Positions 3,329 to 31,403 of a DNA stretch of 34,373 nt are shown one piece after another. The position numbers were made by a program, and so were the translations under genes. Source of the DNA: a virus. The stretch is taken from IMG/VR virus record IMGVR_UViG_3300005529_001088, positions 1 through 34,373 of that record; one strand, 5' to 3'. The notes below the pieces were generated by a model. It saw nothing but the letters and a program-made list of their open reading frames with translations, made no database searches and was not told where the DNA came from. The stretch's first letter is position 1, and every line of letters begins with the position of its first letter.

Positions 3329-4984
3329 ATGGGAGTGCGCGACTGGTTAGCCGAGGCCTTCCGCGACGAGCCGCGCCGGCCCTCGGGGCCGCAGGCGGCG
3401 CTCGCGCTCGCGGAGCGCGAGCGGTACGAGGCGACGGTCGAACTGCTGCAGGAGCGCCTCGCCGAGCTCGAGCTCGCCGTCGAGGACGCCGGGTGGCAGC
3501 GGCTCACCGGCGAGTCCGCCCGCGAGTTCTCGCGCGACGGGCTGCGCCGCATCGCCGCGCTGTCGCGGCTCTTCTTCCTGAAGAACCCGCTCGTCGCGCG
3601 GGCGGTGAGGCTGCAAGCCATCTACGTCTGGGGGCAGGGCGTCAACATCCATGCCCGCCACCCCGCCGTGGACGCCGTCGTGCAGCGGTTCCTGGACGAC
3701 CCGGCGAACAGGGCCGAGCTGACGAGCCACCAGGCGCGTGTGCTCAAGGAGATCGACCTCCAGGTCGAAGGCAACCTGTTCCTCGTGCTCTTCCCGTCGC
3801 CGGTCGACGGCCGCGTGCGCGTGCGCTCGATCCCGCCGGACGAGATCGTCGACATCGTCACCAACCCCGACGACGCGAAGGAGGTGTGGTTCTACAAGCG
3901 CGCCTGGTCGGTCCGCGGGTTCGACCCGGCCACCGGGACCTCCAGCCCGCAAACCCGGACCGCGTACTACCCCGACTGGCGCTACCGCCCGGCGGCGGCG
4001 CGCCCGACCGCGATCGGCGGGGCCCCGGTCGAATGGGACACGCCGGTCTACCACGTCCGCGTGGGTGGCCTCTCCGACATGCGCTTCGGCGTGCCCGAGA
4101 CGTACGCCGCGCTCGATTGGGCCCGCGCCTACAAGGCGTTCCTCGAGGATTGGGCGACCATCACCCGAGCCCTCAGCCGATTCGCCTGGAACCTGACCAC
4201 GCGCGGCGGCGCCAAGGGCGTCGCCGCCGCGCGCGCGCGGCTCGGGACCACGCTCGCGGCTGGCGCCTCCGCCGAGCAGGTGGAAACCAACCCCCCGCCG
4301 CTGACGGGGTCGGTCTTCATCGGCGCCGAGGGCACCAGGCTCGAGCCGGTCCGCACGTCGGGCGCGACGACCTCGGCCGAGGACGGCCGGCGGCTCCTGC
4401 TGATGGTCGCCGCGGCGACCGGCCTGCCCGAGAGCTTCTTCGGCGACGTCTCGGTGGGGACGCTCGCCACCGCGCGGAGCCTCGACCGGCCGACGGAGCT
4501 CAAGTTCCGGGACCGCCAAACGCTCTGGGCAGACGTGCTCAACGACCTCCTGCAGTATGCGATCGACTGGGCGGCGCGCGCCCCGGCCGGCCCGTTGCCC
4601 GCGGCCGCGGGCGAGGCCGACCCCGGCGCGCTGCACGTCGCGCTCGGCGAGGACCCCGACACCGGCGAGCCGATCGACCGGTACGTGTCGATCGAGTTCC
4701 CGCCGATCCTCGAGCACGACGTCGAGGCGACCATCGGCGCGATCGTCGCGGCCGCGACGCTGGGGGGCAACGCCCCGGCCGGCACGATCGATCCCAAGCT
4801 CGTCAGCAAGCTGCTCCTGACGGCGCTCGGCCAGGACGACGTCGACGAGCTCCTGGGCGAGATGTACCCGGAGGACGACGAGGGCCAGGATGCGGCGGCG
4901 TCGACGGCCGCGCCGCCGGCCGAGGCGCTCGTCGCCGCCGTACGGCAGTTGACCGAGGCGGTCCGTGCGCTCCGCGCTGGCTGA
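3329..4984 (+). CDS. Portal protein
   Basis: A dodecameric portal forms the DNA entry vertex of the head and docks the terminase. The product is 551 aa from an ATG at 3329 preceded by AGGGGGTGG. An early coiled stretch (about residues 30-55) leads into a region with FFLKNPLVARAVRLQAIYVWGQGVNI, typical of portal wings. The part around GLPESFFGDVSVGTLATARSLDRPTELKF matches the conserved clip and stem region of phage portals. The acidic, low-complexity C-terminus overlaps the next gene by 20 bp. Position between terL and a Mu F-like gene supports the call. Confidence 0.88.
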   Translation: MGVRDWLAEAFRDEPRRPSGPQAALALAERERYEATVELLQERLAELELAVEDAGWQRLTGESAREFSRDGLRRIAALSRLFFLKNPLVARAVRLQAIYVWGQGVNIHARHPAVDAVVQRFLDDPANRAELTSHQARVLKEIDLQVEGNLFLVLFPSPVDGRVRVRSIPPDEIVDIVTNPDDAKEVWFYKRAWSVRGFDPATGTSSPQTRTAYYPDWRYRPAAARPTAIGGAPVEWDTPVYHVRVGGLSDMRFGVPETYAALDWARAYKAFLEDWATITRALSRFAWNLTTRGGAKGVAAARARLGTTLAAGASAEQVETNPPPLTGSVFIGAEGTRLEPVRTSGATTSAEDGRRLLLMVAAATGLPESFFGDVSVGTLATARSLDRPTELKFRDRQTLWADVLNDLLQYAIDWAARAPAGPLPAAAGEADPGALHVALGEDPDTGEPIDRYVSIEFPPILEHDVEATIGAIVAAATLGGNAPAGTIDPKLVSKLLLTALGQDDVDELLGEMYPEDDEGQDAAASTAAPPAEALVAAVRQLTEAVRALRAG

Positions 4985-5765
4985 CGCCGCCGACGCGTTT
5001 CTGCGGGAGGCGGCGCGGCCCGTCCGCGACCTCGCCCTGGAGCGGGAGCGCCGCCGGCTCGAGCGGCGGCTGGGGCACGCCTGGGAGGTCCAGGGCGCGG
5101 CGTTCCTGCGGCGGCTCGCCGCGCTCAGGCCGCGGTTCCCCGACGTGCAGGAGGCGGTCCGGGTCCAGGACTGGGAACCGCTGCTCGACGCCGCGCTCCG
5201 CCTCACGCGCGGCCTGTTCCGGCGGGCGCTCGACCGCGCCATCCGCGCGGCCGTCCGCCTCGGTTTCGACGCCGGGCGCGTCGCGGCCTCCTTCGACCTC
5301 GCGAACCCGCGCGCGGTCGCCTACCTGCGCGACCACGGCGCCGAGCTCGTCGCCGGGATCGAGGACACGACGCGCCAGGAGATCCGCGCGCTCCTCGTCC
5401 AGGCCGCGGCCGAGGGCTGGTCCTACGACCGGGCGGCCCGGGCGATCGCCCGGCGGTTCGCCGAGTTCCGGGACGGCCGGCCCCAGGAGCACATCCGCAG
5501 CCGCGCCCACCTGGTCGCGGCGACCGAGCTCGGCAACGCCTACGAGCACGGCACCCTGCTGGCGGCCGAGCAGGCACACGCCAGCGGCACGCCGATGGAG
5601 AAGGCGTGGCTGGCCGTGCTGGACGACCGGACCGAGCAGGAGTGCCGGGATAACCACGCCGCGGGCTGGATCCCCATCGACCAGGCGTTCCCGTCGGGGC
5701 ACCAACGACCACTCGCGCACCCGGCGTGCCGGTGCACGCTGCTGACGCGGCCGAGGGCCGGCTGA
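4965..5765 (+). CDS. Phage minor head protein, Mu gpF-like
   Basis: A 266-aa head morphogenesis protein, probably a minor capsid component near the portal. The C-terminal part carries the Mu F-like domain: a helix-rich section with RSRAHLVAATELGNAYEHG, then VLDDRTEQECRDNHAAGWIPIDQ, ending in HPACRCTLL. The Cys and His residues in that last segment are characteristic of the family. The GTG start at 4965 lies inside the 3' end of the portal gene, so translation is probably coupled. Gene order portal then gpF-like is standard for this head type. Confidence 0.85.
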   Translation: MRSALADAADAFLREAARPVRDLALERERRRLERRLGHAWEVQGAAFLRRLAALRPRFPDVQEAVRVQDWEPLLDAALRLTRGLFRRALDRAIRAAVRLGFDAGRVAASFDLANPRAVAYLRDHGAELVAGIEDTTRQEIRALLVQAAAEGWSYDRAARAIARRFAEFRDGRPQEHIRSRAHLVAATELGNAYEHGTLLAAEQAHASGTPMEKAWLAVLDDRTEQECRDNHAAGWIPIDQAFPSGHQRPLAHPACRCTLLTRPRAG

Positions 5766-5954
5766 GTGGCGGACGCCGCGGCGTCCGCCGAGGCCGCGCC
5801 GGTGACCGACATGGCGCCGCGCTGCTGGCGCTGCGGCCGCACGCTGGCGGAGTGGCTGTCGCGGCCCTGGTCGCTGCGGTGCCAACGGTGCAAGGCCGCG
5901 AACCGCCGCGGCGACCCGCCCGCTGCGGCGTCCGCCACCGCGGAGCCCGCGTGA
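5766..5954 (+). CDS. Com-like zinc-ribbon protein (Mu Com family)
   Basis: A 62-aa protein whose core PRCWRCGRTLAEW...SLRCQRCKAANRRG has two CxxC pairs (C20/C23 and C39/C42). This spacing and the CxxCKxxN ending match the Com protein of phage Mu, which is also about 62 aa. Mu Com binds the mom mRNA as a zinc protein and opens a hairpin that hides the translation start. Here the gene starts with a GTG directly after the gpF-like stop. It ends 55 bp before a long hairpin that covers the ribosome-binding site of the next gene. An RNA-binding activator role is inferred from that arrangement; it could equally be a generic zinc ribbon. Confidence 0.7.
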   Translation: MADAAASAEAAPVTDMAPRCWRCGRTLAEWLSRPWSLRCQRCKAANRRGDPPAAASATAEPA

Positions 5955-5955
5955 C

Positions 5956-5985
5956 TTGACAGCCCGACCGCCCATCGCATACCGT
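5956..5985 (+). promoter_or_regulatory. Sigma70-type promoter candidate before the protease gene
   Basis: TTGACA at 5956-5961 matches the -35 consensus exactly. TACCGT at 5980-5985 fits TAnnnT as a -10 element with an 18-nt spacer. Transcription would begin near 5992, just ahead of the hairpin at 6010-6058. The site lies in one of the few real gaps in the late operon. Confidence 0.55.
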
Positions 5986-6009
5986 CCGACCAACCGAACA
6001 GTCCGGTCG

Positions 6010-6058
6010 AGCGGCCCCCGCTGCATCGCGGCCCAGAATGCAGCACAAGGGGGCCGCT
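6010..6058 (+). promoter_or_regulatory. Long hairpin over the protease-gene ribosome-binding site
   Basis: Outer arms AGCGGCCCCC (6010-6019) and GGGGGCCGCT (6049-6058) are perfectly complementary. Directly inside, GCTGCAT (6020-6026) pairs with ATGCAGC (6038-6044) around an 11-nt loop, leaving only ACAA bulged on the 3' side. The GGGGG of the 3' arm is the only Shine-Dalgarno-like sequence for the TTG at 6063, so the folded RNA should block translation. Only TT precedes CATTG, so the U tract is poor for an intrinsic terminator, though an attenuator is possible. The Com-like gene is immediately upstream. Confidence 0.75.
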
Positions 6059-6062
6059 TTCA

Positions 6063-7736
6063 TTGGACGCGCGGGCGCTGCTCGTTCAGCTGTTGGACCT
6101 GGCCGAGGCCGGCCGGATGATCTCCGCGGCGAACCTCGCCGCGATCAAGGCGGCCTGCGACGCCCTGCTGGCGCTGATCGCGCGGGCCGAGGGCGGGCAG
6201 GACGCACCCTCGGAGGCGGAGGTCAGGCGGGCGACGGAAGCCGCCCGGGCGCTCCTCGAGGCGGACCTCAGCTTCGACGACACCGTCCAGGCGCTGCGCG
6301 CGGCGCTGGTCGCGGAGCACGGCGGCCGCGACGTCTGGGTCCGCGACTGCTACGACGACTACGTCGTCTACGAGGTCTGCGACCCCGCCGACGGCGGCGG
6401 GGCGCCGACGGGCGCGCTCTATAAGCGCGCCTACGTCGTCGGCGCCGACGGCGGGGTGACGCTCGGCGACCCGGTCGAGGTTCGCCGGGTCACGAGCTAC
6501 GAGCCCGTCGCCGAGGCCCGCGACCCGAACGTCGGGGGCGGCGTCGACCGGTCGGAGATCCCGGCCGAGGACTTCGCCGGCAAGGGGCGCTCGTTCCCGA
6601 TCGTCACGCCCCGGGACGTGGCCGACGCGGCCGCCTCGATCGGGCGCGCCGGCGCCGACAACTACCCGCCGGACGAGCTGAAGCGGCGGATCGTCGCGAT
6701 CGCGCGACGGAAGGGCGACGCCTTCGTCGCGCGCCTCCCGAAGGCGTGGCGCGACGAGCTGGGGGAGGCGACCGCGCTCGACGTGTCGGGCGAGGTCATC
6801 CCCCTGGTCGAGCGCGCCGTCCGGCGCGACGGGACCGTGCCGATCAAAATCATCGCCCCCGGCTGGGGCTCGTCGGGCTACTACCCGGCCGAGGTGCTCG
6901 AACGCGACGGTCCCGTCGCGTTCCCGGCGGGCACGAAAATGTTCTGGGACCACCCCCTCCCGTCCGAGGAGGCGGACCGGCCCGAGCGCTCGCTGCGGGA
7001 CCTCGCCGCGGAGCTCGTGTCCGACGCGCGCTGGGAGCCGGCCGGTCCGGCCGGTCCAGGGCTCTACGCCGACGCGAAGGTTTTCGGCGCGTACCGGGAC
7101 GCGCTCGAGGAGCTCGCGCCCCACATCGGCGTCTCGATCCGCGCGCTGGGGCGCGGCCGGGACGGGGAGGCCGAGGGGCGGCGCGGCAAGGTGATCGAGG
7201 CGCTCGTGGCCGGCCGTTCCGTCGATTTCGTGACGGTGCCCGGCGCGGGCGGCCGGGTGTGCCAGTTGTTCGAGTCGGCGCGGGCCCGCGCCGCCGACCA
7301 GCCAACGGAGGGACGAGGCATGACCGAAACCGAGGCCCAGGCCCTGAGGGAGGCCAACCGCGCGCTCCTGGGGCGCGTCGACCAGCTCGCCGCCCGCCTG
7401 CTCGAGGCGGACGCGCGCGAGTTCGCACGCGAGCGGCTCGCCGCCGTGCAGCTGCCGGAGGCCGCGCGGCAGCGCCTAGCCGCCGCTCTGGTGCCGCGGG
7501 CACCCGCGCGGGACGGCGCGCTCGACCGTGAGGCGTTCGCCGCGGCGATCGCCGAGGCGGCTGCGGCCGAGGCCCGCTACCTCGGCGAGTGCGCCCAGGC
7601 GGGCGCCATCCGTGGGATGGGCTCGGCGCCGGCTGAGGTCACCGCGGAGGAGGCCACCGGCCGCCTGGAGCGCGCGCTGCGCGACCTCGGGCTCAGCGAA
7701 TCCGCCGCGAAGATCGCGGCCGTCGGGAGGGTCTAG
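6063..7736 (+). CDS. Capsid maturation protease with C-terminal scaffold domain
   Basis: A 557-aa protein in the position of a head maturation protease. Residues around 180-225 (SFPIVTPRDVADAAASIGRAG then RRIVAIARRKGDAF) are a short domain often seen in phage protease proteins. The protease part follows: KIIAPGWGSSGYYPAEVLE, then FWDHP with candidate catalytic H297, then IGVSIRALG with candidate Ser nucleophile S358. The end (about residue 420 on) is helical and Glu/Ala-rich, as expected for a scaffold. The start is TTG at 6063; ATG at 6117 (residue 19) is an alternative. A second in-frame start lies at 7320. Confidence 0.72.
   Translation: MDARALLVQLLDLAEAGRMISAANLAAIKAACDALLALIARAEGGQDAPSEAEVRRATEAARALLEADLSFDDTVQALRAALVAEHGGRDVWVRDCYDDYVVYEVCDPADGGGAPTGALYKRAYVVGADGGVTLGDPVEVRRVTSYEPVAEARDPNVGGGVDRSEIPAEDFAGKGRSFPIVTPRDVADAAASIGRAGADNYPPDELKRRIVAIARRKGDAFVARLPKAWRDELGEATALDVSGEVIPLVERAVRRDGTVPIKIIAPGWGSSGYYPAEVLERDGPVAFPAGTKMFWDHPLPSEEADRPERSLRDLAAELVSDARWEPAGPAGPGLYADAKVFGAYRDALEELAPHIGVSIRALGRGRDGEAEGRRGKVIEALVAGRSVDFVTVPGAGGRVCQLFESARARAADQPTEGRGMTETEAQALREANRALLGRVDQLAARLLEADAREFARERLAAVQLPEAARQRLAAALVPRAPARDGALDREAFAAAIAEAAAAEARYLGECAQAGAIRGMGSAPAEVTAEEATGRLERALRDLGLSESAAKIAAVGRV
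7320..7736 (+). CDS. Nested in-frame scaffold protein (internal start in the protease gene)
   Basis: Within the protease gene, GGAGGG (7307-7312) lies 7 nt before an in-frame ATG at 7320 (residue 420 of the long product). The resulting 138-aa protein begins MTETEAQALREANRALLGRVDQL, a good coiled-coil start, and is helical and Ala/Glu/Arg-rich throughout. This is the layout of lambda C/Nu3, where the scaffold is made separately from the 3' end of the protease gene. Evidence is the strong ribosome-binding site at a domain boundary; expression is inferred. Confidence 0.55.
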   Translation: MTETEAQALREANRALLGRVDQLAARLLEADAREFARERLAAVQLPEAARQRLAAALVPRAPARDGALDREAFAAAIAEAAAAEARYLGECAQAGAIRGMGSAPAEVTAEEATGRLERALRDLGLSESAAKIAAVGRV

Positions 7737-30524: not shown

Positions 30525-31403
30525 GTGTCCTGGGTGAAACTGGACGACGGCTTCTTCCGGCACCACAAGGTCATCCTCGCCGGCCGGGAGGCCCGCGACC
30601 TGGCGCTGGCGGCGCTCTGCCATGCCAGCGCCAGCCTCTCCGACGGCTACATCCCCGCGGGCGCACTGCGGCAGCTCGCGGCCGACGCGCAGGTCAGCAA
30701 CCCGAAGCGGCTGGCCGCCCGGTTGGTCGAGGTCGGCCTCTGGGAGGTCGCGCCGGGCGGCTACCGGATCCATGACTACCTGGCCTACAACCCCAGCCGT
30801 GAGCGCGTCCTCGAGACCCGCGCCAGGCGGGTCGCGGCGGCGAGCAAAACGCGAGCACACGCCGAGCAAAACGCGAGCAAAACGCGAGCAAAACGCGAGC
30901 ATTTTGCTCGCGACGACGCCCTCGCGGAGGCCGAGCAAAATGCTGGCCCGCGTGACACCCCCCCGTCCCATGACCCGTCCCGTCCCCTCGAGTCGCCTCC
31001 GTCGGAGCACCCGGGGGAAGCGACGGAGACCGGTGGGGGTACACGCATCGCGCGCGCGCGCGCGATGGCCGTGCCGAAGCCCGGGCTGCCGCCGGGGAGC
31101 ACCGAGGCGGCGCTGCGCGCCGAATTCGCGCTCCTGCTCGGACCGCCGGGCACGGAGGGCGAGCGACGCCGCGAGAACGTGGCCATCGGCGAGCTGGCAC
31201 GGGCGGGGGTCCGGCCGGGCGAGCCGCAGCAGCTCGTGGACGCGTGGCGGGAGCTCTACACGGTGCCCTGCACGGTCCGGGCGATCGCCGACAACCTGCG
31301 GACGCTGCGCCGGCCCGTCCGCGGCCGTGGGCCGGGCCGGCGGCGCGAGACGGCGGCCGAGCAGATCGACCGCGTGTTCGCGGAGCACGGGGTGGCCTCG
31401 TGA
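30525..31403 (+). CDS. Replication initiator-like protein (lambda O/DnaD-type winged helix)
   Basis: A 292-aa protein. The start WVKLDDGFFRHHKVILAG and the winged-helix-like sequence through LRQLAADAQVSNPKRLAARL and EVGLWEVAPGGYRIHDYLAY are typical for phage replication proteins with an O-like N-terminus. The C-terminal half (GPPGTEGERRRENVAIGELA onward) would interact with a helicase or loader. Between the two lies low-complexity sequence that is encoded by an 11-bp iteron array. GTG start at 30525, since it gives the family-typical MSWVKLDD start. Confidence 0.75.
   Translation: MSWVKLDDGFFRHHKVILAGREARDLALAALCHASASLSDGYIPAGALRQLAADAQVSNPKRLAARLVEVGLWEVAPGGYRIHDYLAYNPSRERVLETRARRVAAASKTRAHAEQNASKTRAKREHFARDDALAEAEQNAGPRDTPPSHDPSRPLESPPSEHPGEATETGGGTRIARARAMAVPKPGLPPGSTEAALRAEFALLLGPPGTEGERRRENVAIGELARAGVRPGEPQQLVDAWRELYTVPCTVRAIADNLRTLRRPVRGRGPGRRRETAAEQIDRVFAEHGVAS
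30840..30941 (+). repeat. Iteron array: candidate phage replication origin
   Basis: Five copies of an 11-bp unit lie head to tail (30840-30894): GCGAGCAAAAC at 30840, 30873 and 30884, CCGAGCAAAAC at 30862, and a diverged GCGAGCACACG at 30851. Directly after, GCGAGCA (30895-30901) meets an inverted TTTTGCTCGC (30902-30911). A further CCGAGCAAAAT starts at 30931. The period of 11 is not a multiple of three, so the repeat is kept as DNA rather than as peptide. It sits inside the O-like gene, as the lambda origin does. Confidence 0.75.
31046..31065. repeat. 20-bp perfect palindrome with a (CG)7 core
   Basis: CATCGCG...CGCGATG forms a perfect palindrome whose centre is fourteen alternating C and G bases. 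It lies about 100 bp downstream of the iterons, inside the same gene. Such tracts can adopt Z-DNA or a cruciform and could be part of the origin. Confidence 0.6.

Follow-up and report, generated by a model that had tools for sequence, protein, structure and literature searches.

A Com-like gene and a putative regulatory leader upstream of a viral capsid protease gene, and a GAGCGCC-repeat leader class preceding phage head genes

The zinc-ribbon protein Com is known from one job, i.e., switching on the DNA-modification gene of phage Mu. It acts by opening a translation inhibition structure, and the RNAs selected by Com in vitro (SELEX) carry the motif 5'-CC(N)2-3GAG-3' plus a second half, GAG(N)2CC (PMC6483171). 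The Mu site, GAATGCCTGCGAGCATCC, is located in the 3' end of com. Here we describe a locus where a Com-like gene precedes a head protease gene, and a class of phage leaders to which this locus may belong.

Organisation of the protease leader

The window, i.e., the whole stretch of DNA that was analysed, comprises the 34,373 bases of a complete IMG/VR record. Its head module shows the order integrase, terminase, portal, MuF, Com-like ORF, protease, decoration protein and capsid protein; a scan based on the portal found no relatives. The gene of the MuF-like minor head protein (4965..5765, + strand; PF04233, E 8e-12; PHROG head morphogenesis) ends with a stop codon that abuts the start of the Com-like gene (5766..5954, +). 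The 62-aa zinc-ribbon gene proposed at this position is real: it has a GTG start and a C-x2-C-x15-C-x2-C arrangement of cysteines, and its family counts 71 loci in IMG/VR. Right at this GTG start (5768-5789) there is a perfect 9-bp hairpin (GGCGGACGC/GCGTCCGCC), and elsewhere in the window overlapping inverted repeats (CGCGAGCAAAA/TTTTGCTCGCG) are clustered at 30863-30944.

The anatomy of the region between the Com-like gene and the protease gene can be read directly. The promoter of the original prediction (5956..5985, +) was found again, with TTGACA at 5956-5961, a spacer of 18 nt and TACCGT at 5980-5985, and its score is equalled by only 0.4% of the other 160-nt segments of the same contig; a stricter promoter scan of the window listed none. 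It is followed by an imperfect palindrome, ACCGAAC-A-GTCCGGT (5993..6007, +), that might act as an operator, and by CCGGTCGAGCGGCC (6003..6016, +), which resembles a degenerate Com site of the form CC-N4-GAG-N3-CC. Then comes a hairpin (6010..6058, +) made, as had been described, of two perfect stems, an outer one of 10 bp (6010-6019/6049-6058) and an inner one of 7 bp (6020-6026/6038-6044), the foot of the 5' arm being GAGCGGCC. The RNA folding proposed as a check yielded a z of -2.9, with one of 200 shuffled sequences as stable, and a z of -4.4 when the flanking foot was included. Judged as an intrinsic terminator, the stem is strong and the tail, TTTCATT, has an nT of 2.2-2.9 against a median of 3.0 for the elements described below. 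Perfect stems of at least 10 bp number 27 in the window, compared with 5-12 in first-order Markov sequences. We have rejected the hairpin by itself as a chance-proof rarity: a lone 10-bp perfect arm is not rare at 74% GC, and it is the conjunction with a promoter, a T-rich tail and a start codon that counts. This succession of promoter, T-tailed hairpin and head gene start is also the layout of the attenuator class presented below.

The 3' arm of the hairpin contains AAGGGGG (6047..6053, +), which is indeed the only strong Shine-Dalgarno sequence for the protease gene, 9 nt before the TTG at 6063, and this TTG lies only 4 nt past the hairpin end. Freeing the AAGGGGG site would cost about 18 kcal/mol, the highest value among 20 positions (putative starts) tested in the window, and the ribosome site of the target gene is thus predicted to be buried in the hairpin, as in a switch of the Mu mom type. 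The gene itself encodes a head maturation protease/scaffold protein (6063..7736, +; PHROG 15531, E 5e-29). The next in-frame ATG, at 6117, is unlikely to be the true start because a conserved EAGR motif is located upstream of it. The Com-like ORF and the protease gene share the reading frame, and no stop codon is found between the TGA at 5952 and the TTG at 6063, so that stop readthrough would fuse both; a Com-protease fusion via the TGA at 5952 is possible on paper. The third-position GC of the gap between the two ORFs looks non-coding.

Relatives of the protease leader and of the Com-like protein

The closest relative, found in a wider scan of protease relatives, is the locus L105, whose protease is 60% identical to that of the window over residues 235-556. 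L105 shows the order MuF, Com, a 177-aa ORF, a promoter overlapping the stop codon, a hairpin, GTTTTTC and a TTG start. Its Com, which occupies the slot of the window's Com-like gene after MuF, is recognised by PF10122 (33.6 bits, cut-off 22.9), and its promoter, TTGACA-N18-TACAGT, agrees with that of the window in spacing and position. The homology of both leaders is observed directly in their alignment, which scores 62.5 compared with 32.7 +/- 7.4 for shuffled sequences (1 of 1000), L105 being the best match among the protease leaders compared with the window. In addition, the L105 protease leader carries the Com motif, GAGCGCCAUCGAGCGCC being the predicted Com-binding RNA sequence. None of the first 26 head-module relatives has a Com gene at the MuF/protease junction, where promoters and hairpins recur, and these relatives led us to reject a conserved proximity of Com to the protease; L105 later showed this arrangement.

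Com also lies beside the protease in other protease families (L240 and L364), and L208 has a weaker Com-like ORF at this place. The L208 locus mirrors the window, with a com-like gene, a promoter-like sequence, a hairpin with AAGGGGG, TTTC and the GTG of an HK97 protease, and in L306 a Shine-Dalgarno sequence is found within the terminator arm, with the ATG right after the T-run. L306 and L208 show that leaders exist in which a predicted terminator and a ribosome site are merged. The L306 record also contains a skipping-rope RNA (Rfam RF02924; L306:5843-5983, - strand) immediately upstream of the Com ORF of this phage contig.

The Com-like protein of the window belongs to what we call the RPW subfamily, whose 71 loci in IMG/VR share the consensus PRCWRCxRLLAExxTRPWxIxCxRCKAxN and which has relatives in Arthrobacter phages as well. 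It is 54% identical over 33 aa to gp5 of Arthrobacter phage Ottawa, which passes PF10122 (23.6, cut-off 22.9). In the profile search the window protein itself fell below the curated PF10122 Com cut-off, without a hit, and it matched the translational regulator PHROG 6417 with an E of 0.076 only. The family alignments place in it the four-cysteine zinc-ribbon pattern RCxxC..LL..IxCPRCK, and when an RPW profile was compared with one built from classic Com and Mu Com, E was 1.6e-9, a value that stands without a control against unrelated zinc ribbons.

The usual place of RPW-type genes is after a tail terminator and before a gene encoding a calcineurin-like phosphoesterase, a position kept in many environmental phages (L023-L093). 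Among the RPW relatives examined, neither a hairpin nor a Com motif was found 3' of these genes, the gaps being of 1-2 nt or occupied by another ORF, and the idea of a hairpin conserved downstream of them was rejected. Relatives that keep the gene and lack the hairpin, which the original prediction had named as evidence against itself, are what this subfamily offers.

The GAGCGCC-repeat leader class and its link to Com

The protease junctions of L104, L110 and L125 contain a promoter or a -10-like sequence, GAGCGCC-A-N1-2-GAGCGCC, a terminator and the start codon. In the protease loci (1.77 Mb, both strands) the pattern GAGCGCC-N2-4-GAGCGCC occurs seven times, in all seven cases within 90 nt before the protease. 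This motif had been noticed before testing; the control by permutation, the Com-only sample and the comparison of records followed later. Searched more widely, the class leader reads GAGCGCC-A-N1-3-GAGCGCC, its second copy being the 5' arm of an intrinsic terminator; the combination of repeat and terminator arm was found in 48 IMG/VR contigs, and in none with a permuted heptamer. The covariation score of the stem is 0.483 compared with 0.150 +/- 0.019 (slid controls at most 0.103), and for the pairs that extend the stem the count is 119 of 144 compared with 65 +/- 6. The predicted stem beyond the second GAGCGCC is kept by compensatory change. Where the genes behind the leader have a PHROG match, they encode mostly the large or small terminase subunit, portal, protease, scaffold or neck proteins. 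Among the promoters preceding the elements, 12 of 38 are in the top 1% of their own contig.

The linkage of Com, motif and terminator is observed directly in these phages. Com is present in 15 of 41 element records and in none of 45 protease relatives lacking the element (p 3e-6; p 5e-4 after dropping the seeds and collapsing near-duplicates). It lies directly upstream of the element in L259, L314, L317, L320, L331 and L332, and in L240 and L364, too, it closely precedes the motif and a terminator or head gene. No Com was seen in most element-bearing contigs, many of which are short fragments, and its absence is thus weak evidence. Three GAGCGCC leaders in about 5 kb, together with a Com gene, are found on one phage contig (L331/L340), which points to a small regulon.

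The GAGCGCC repeat matches both the SELEX motif and the Mu site. Among the matches listed by a motif-first scan (GAGCGCCAN{1,3}GAGCGCC) there are loci with a Com-family ORF, the position of its stop codon relative to the motif ranging from -89 to +78 nt. At one of these loci com is paired with mom (E 6e-72 to PF25680 for Mom and E 4e-15 for Com), and at another with a gene for a D12 methylase. An annotated Aeromonas phage with com and a methyltransferase gene has GAGCACCTCCGAGTGCC at the corresponding place. The Com-only sample consisted of 19 Com genes of bacterial genomes that were picked by PF10122 alone, without use of the motif. Seven of them, com-mom pairs included, show GAG(N)2CC-N2-4-GAG(N)2CC close to the stop codon of com; the sites near com amount to 10 in 7.6 kb, compared with 6 in 48 kb (p 8e-6), an enrichment inflated by overlapping sites in L351. 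Judged from its sequence, the GAGCGCC repeat would be the Com site. In two bacterial genomes (L351 and L352, of G236 and G430) one to three GAG(N)2CC repeats stand between a chromosomal Com-family ORF and a downstream TonB-dependent-receptor-like gene, and Com-type control may extend beyond phages.

The Shine-Dalgarno sequence is outside the hairpin in 26 and inside an arm in 4 of the 30 assignable cases of the class, which makes transcription attenuation the better general model, and the usual mode in the class looks like attenuation of transcription rather than masking of translation. No Rfam family matched the leader in the records scanned, and the literature searched, with incomplete coverage, reported neither the GAGCGCC motif nor a control of head genes by Com, so that its novelty is provisional.

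A model for the window and its alternatives

In the model that we propose, 5956-6062 would be the regulatory leader of a capsid operon encoding the protease, the decoration protein and the major capsid protein. Its dedicated promoter would start a short leader RNA, and the stable hairpin, until opened by a factor acting in trans, would stop the polymerase and/or hide the only ribosome site. In the class, a Com-family zinc-ribbon protein would bind an RNA site of GAG(N)2CC repeats that shares sequence with the 5' arm of an intrinsic terminator; the bound protein would thus block the terminator, and the head genes would be transcribed; in cases of the L306 and L105 type the ribosome site would lie within the same hairpin. 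The likely effector in the window would be the 62-aa Com-like protein encoded next to the leader, its target being a re-specified site near 6003-6016, and we infer for the window the site, the binding of RNA by this protein and antitermination.

The strict repeat GAG(N)2CC-N2-4-GAG(N)2CC was absent from the window in the motif search, and the covariance model R1, with filters off, gave no hit at 6010-6058. The nearest site, at 6003-6016, has four nucleotides between CC and GAG (CCGGTCGAG), compared with the two or three of the Com motif and the CC-N3-GAG-N3-CC of Mu. The plan of the class is kept, i.e., promoter, hairpin foot, T-tail, start and an adjacent Com-like gene, and since L306 and L208 contain merged leaders, the most likely assignment of the window, on a roughly even balance, is that of a divergent class member where terminator and Shine-Dalgarno hiding are merged. 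The original prediction, that a Com-like protein may control a capsid-protease leader, is borne out by the Com and motif linkage in L105 and in unrelated phages, and it is not proven for the window, given a protein below PF10122, the lack of a canonical site and subfamily relatives devoid of the hairpin. Com-family control of head genes appears well supported as a kind, and only likely in this window.

The main competitor is an ordinary operon boundary, where a capsid-operon promoter is followed by a plain terminator, an mRNA-stabilising leader or a weak attenuator, and the Com-like protein is a passenger or has a tail or neck function. Promoters with hairpins or terminators do recur before proteases without Com (L014, L021, L009, L094 and L101), and the RPW-type relatives adjoin tail genes in the absence of any hairpin. 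However, the homologous leader of L105 comes with both Com and the Com motif, a terminator 17-25 nt past its own promoter makes little sense unless it is relieved, and the Shine-Dalgarno sequence is buried deeper than at any other start tested. We regard this explanation as a real, if lesser, possibility. In the L009 leader, a promoter and a long hairpin lie directly before the protease (L009:5570-5662), the -10 being enclosed by an inverted repeat (GAGCGG/CCGCTC); no Com was found in this record, searched as L175.

A translational switch of the Mu mom type, as originally proposed, where the Com-like protein melts the hairpin and exposes the Shine-Dalgarno sequence without any attenuation of transcription, would agree with the masking of both the ribosome site and the start, with the way in which Mu Com opens its inhibition structure (PMC6483171) and with a T-tail in the window that is weaker than or equal to the class median. 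Nevertheless, the hairpin of the relatives is a terminator with the Shine-Dalgarno sequence mostly outside, that of L105 ends in GTTTTTC, and the site is inside com in Mu and L187, whereas in the window it would belong to another transcript, started by a promoter of its own; this makes such a switch unlikely. Chance, i.e., a stem as large as this one and a G-run resembling an SD meeting by accident in GC-rich DNA, which the many perfect stems of the window would allow for, is very improbable in view of the co-occurrence with a top-ranking promoter, the fold z-scores and the homologous leader of L105.

Our leader model, with the window as a divergent class member and its own Com-like protein as the likely effector, is weakened by the missing canonical site and the failure of the covariance model, by the usual position of the RPW subfamily after tail terminators without the element, by the weak T-tail, by the Com-less promoter and hairpin of L009 and by the many element-bearing contigs, often short fragments, where no Com is seen; we consider it evenly balanced between true and false. 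Somewhat more probable than that is the general proposal, i.e., that zinc-ribbon proteins of the Com family would be general regulators, in many phages, of the operons for head and packaging, through a conserved, undescribed, terminator-overlapping GAG(N)2CC leader (Com-relieved attenuation), with com-mom as a special case and the window as a divergent, re-specified member controlling the capsid protease. If true, the release of terminators by Com before terminase, portal, protease and scaffold genes would be an unrecognised device for timing head assembly, and com-mom would be one branch of a larger regulon. The leader RNA would then offer a defined motif, a covarying stem and a likely protein partner.

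Compared with Mu com-mom (PF10122 Com; PF25680 Mom), the window has in common a small four-cysteine Com-like protein encoded just upstream and a hairpin over the ribosome site of the gene that follows, and its relatives share the RNA motif CC(N)2-3GAG. In contrast, its target is a head protease instead of Mom, it has its own promoter between the com-like gene and the target, the hairpin of its relatives is terminator-shaped, and it combines the lack of a canonical site with a protein of a divergent subfamily. As in attenuators of the TRAP and BglG/LicT type, the RNA-site repeat of the relatives overlaps one terminator arm, so that binding and termination would be mutually exclusive; unlike them, the effector would be a phage zinc ribbon, the targets are virion head genes and there is no Rfam match. 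Finally, the promoter placed closely upstream of a terminator ahead of late genes recalls the late-gene antitermination of lambda Q, but Q acts at the DNA site qut, whereas the class conserves an RNA motif and a terminator arm, and it is found before single head operons.
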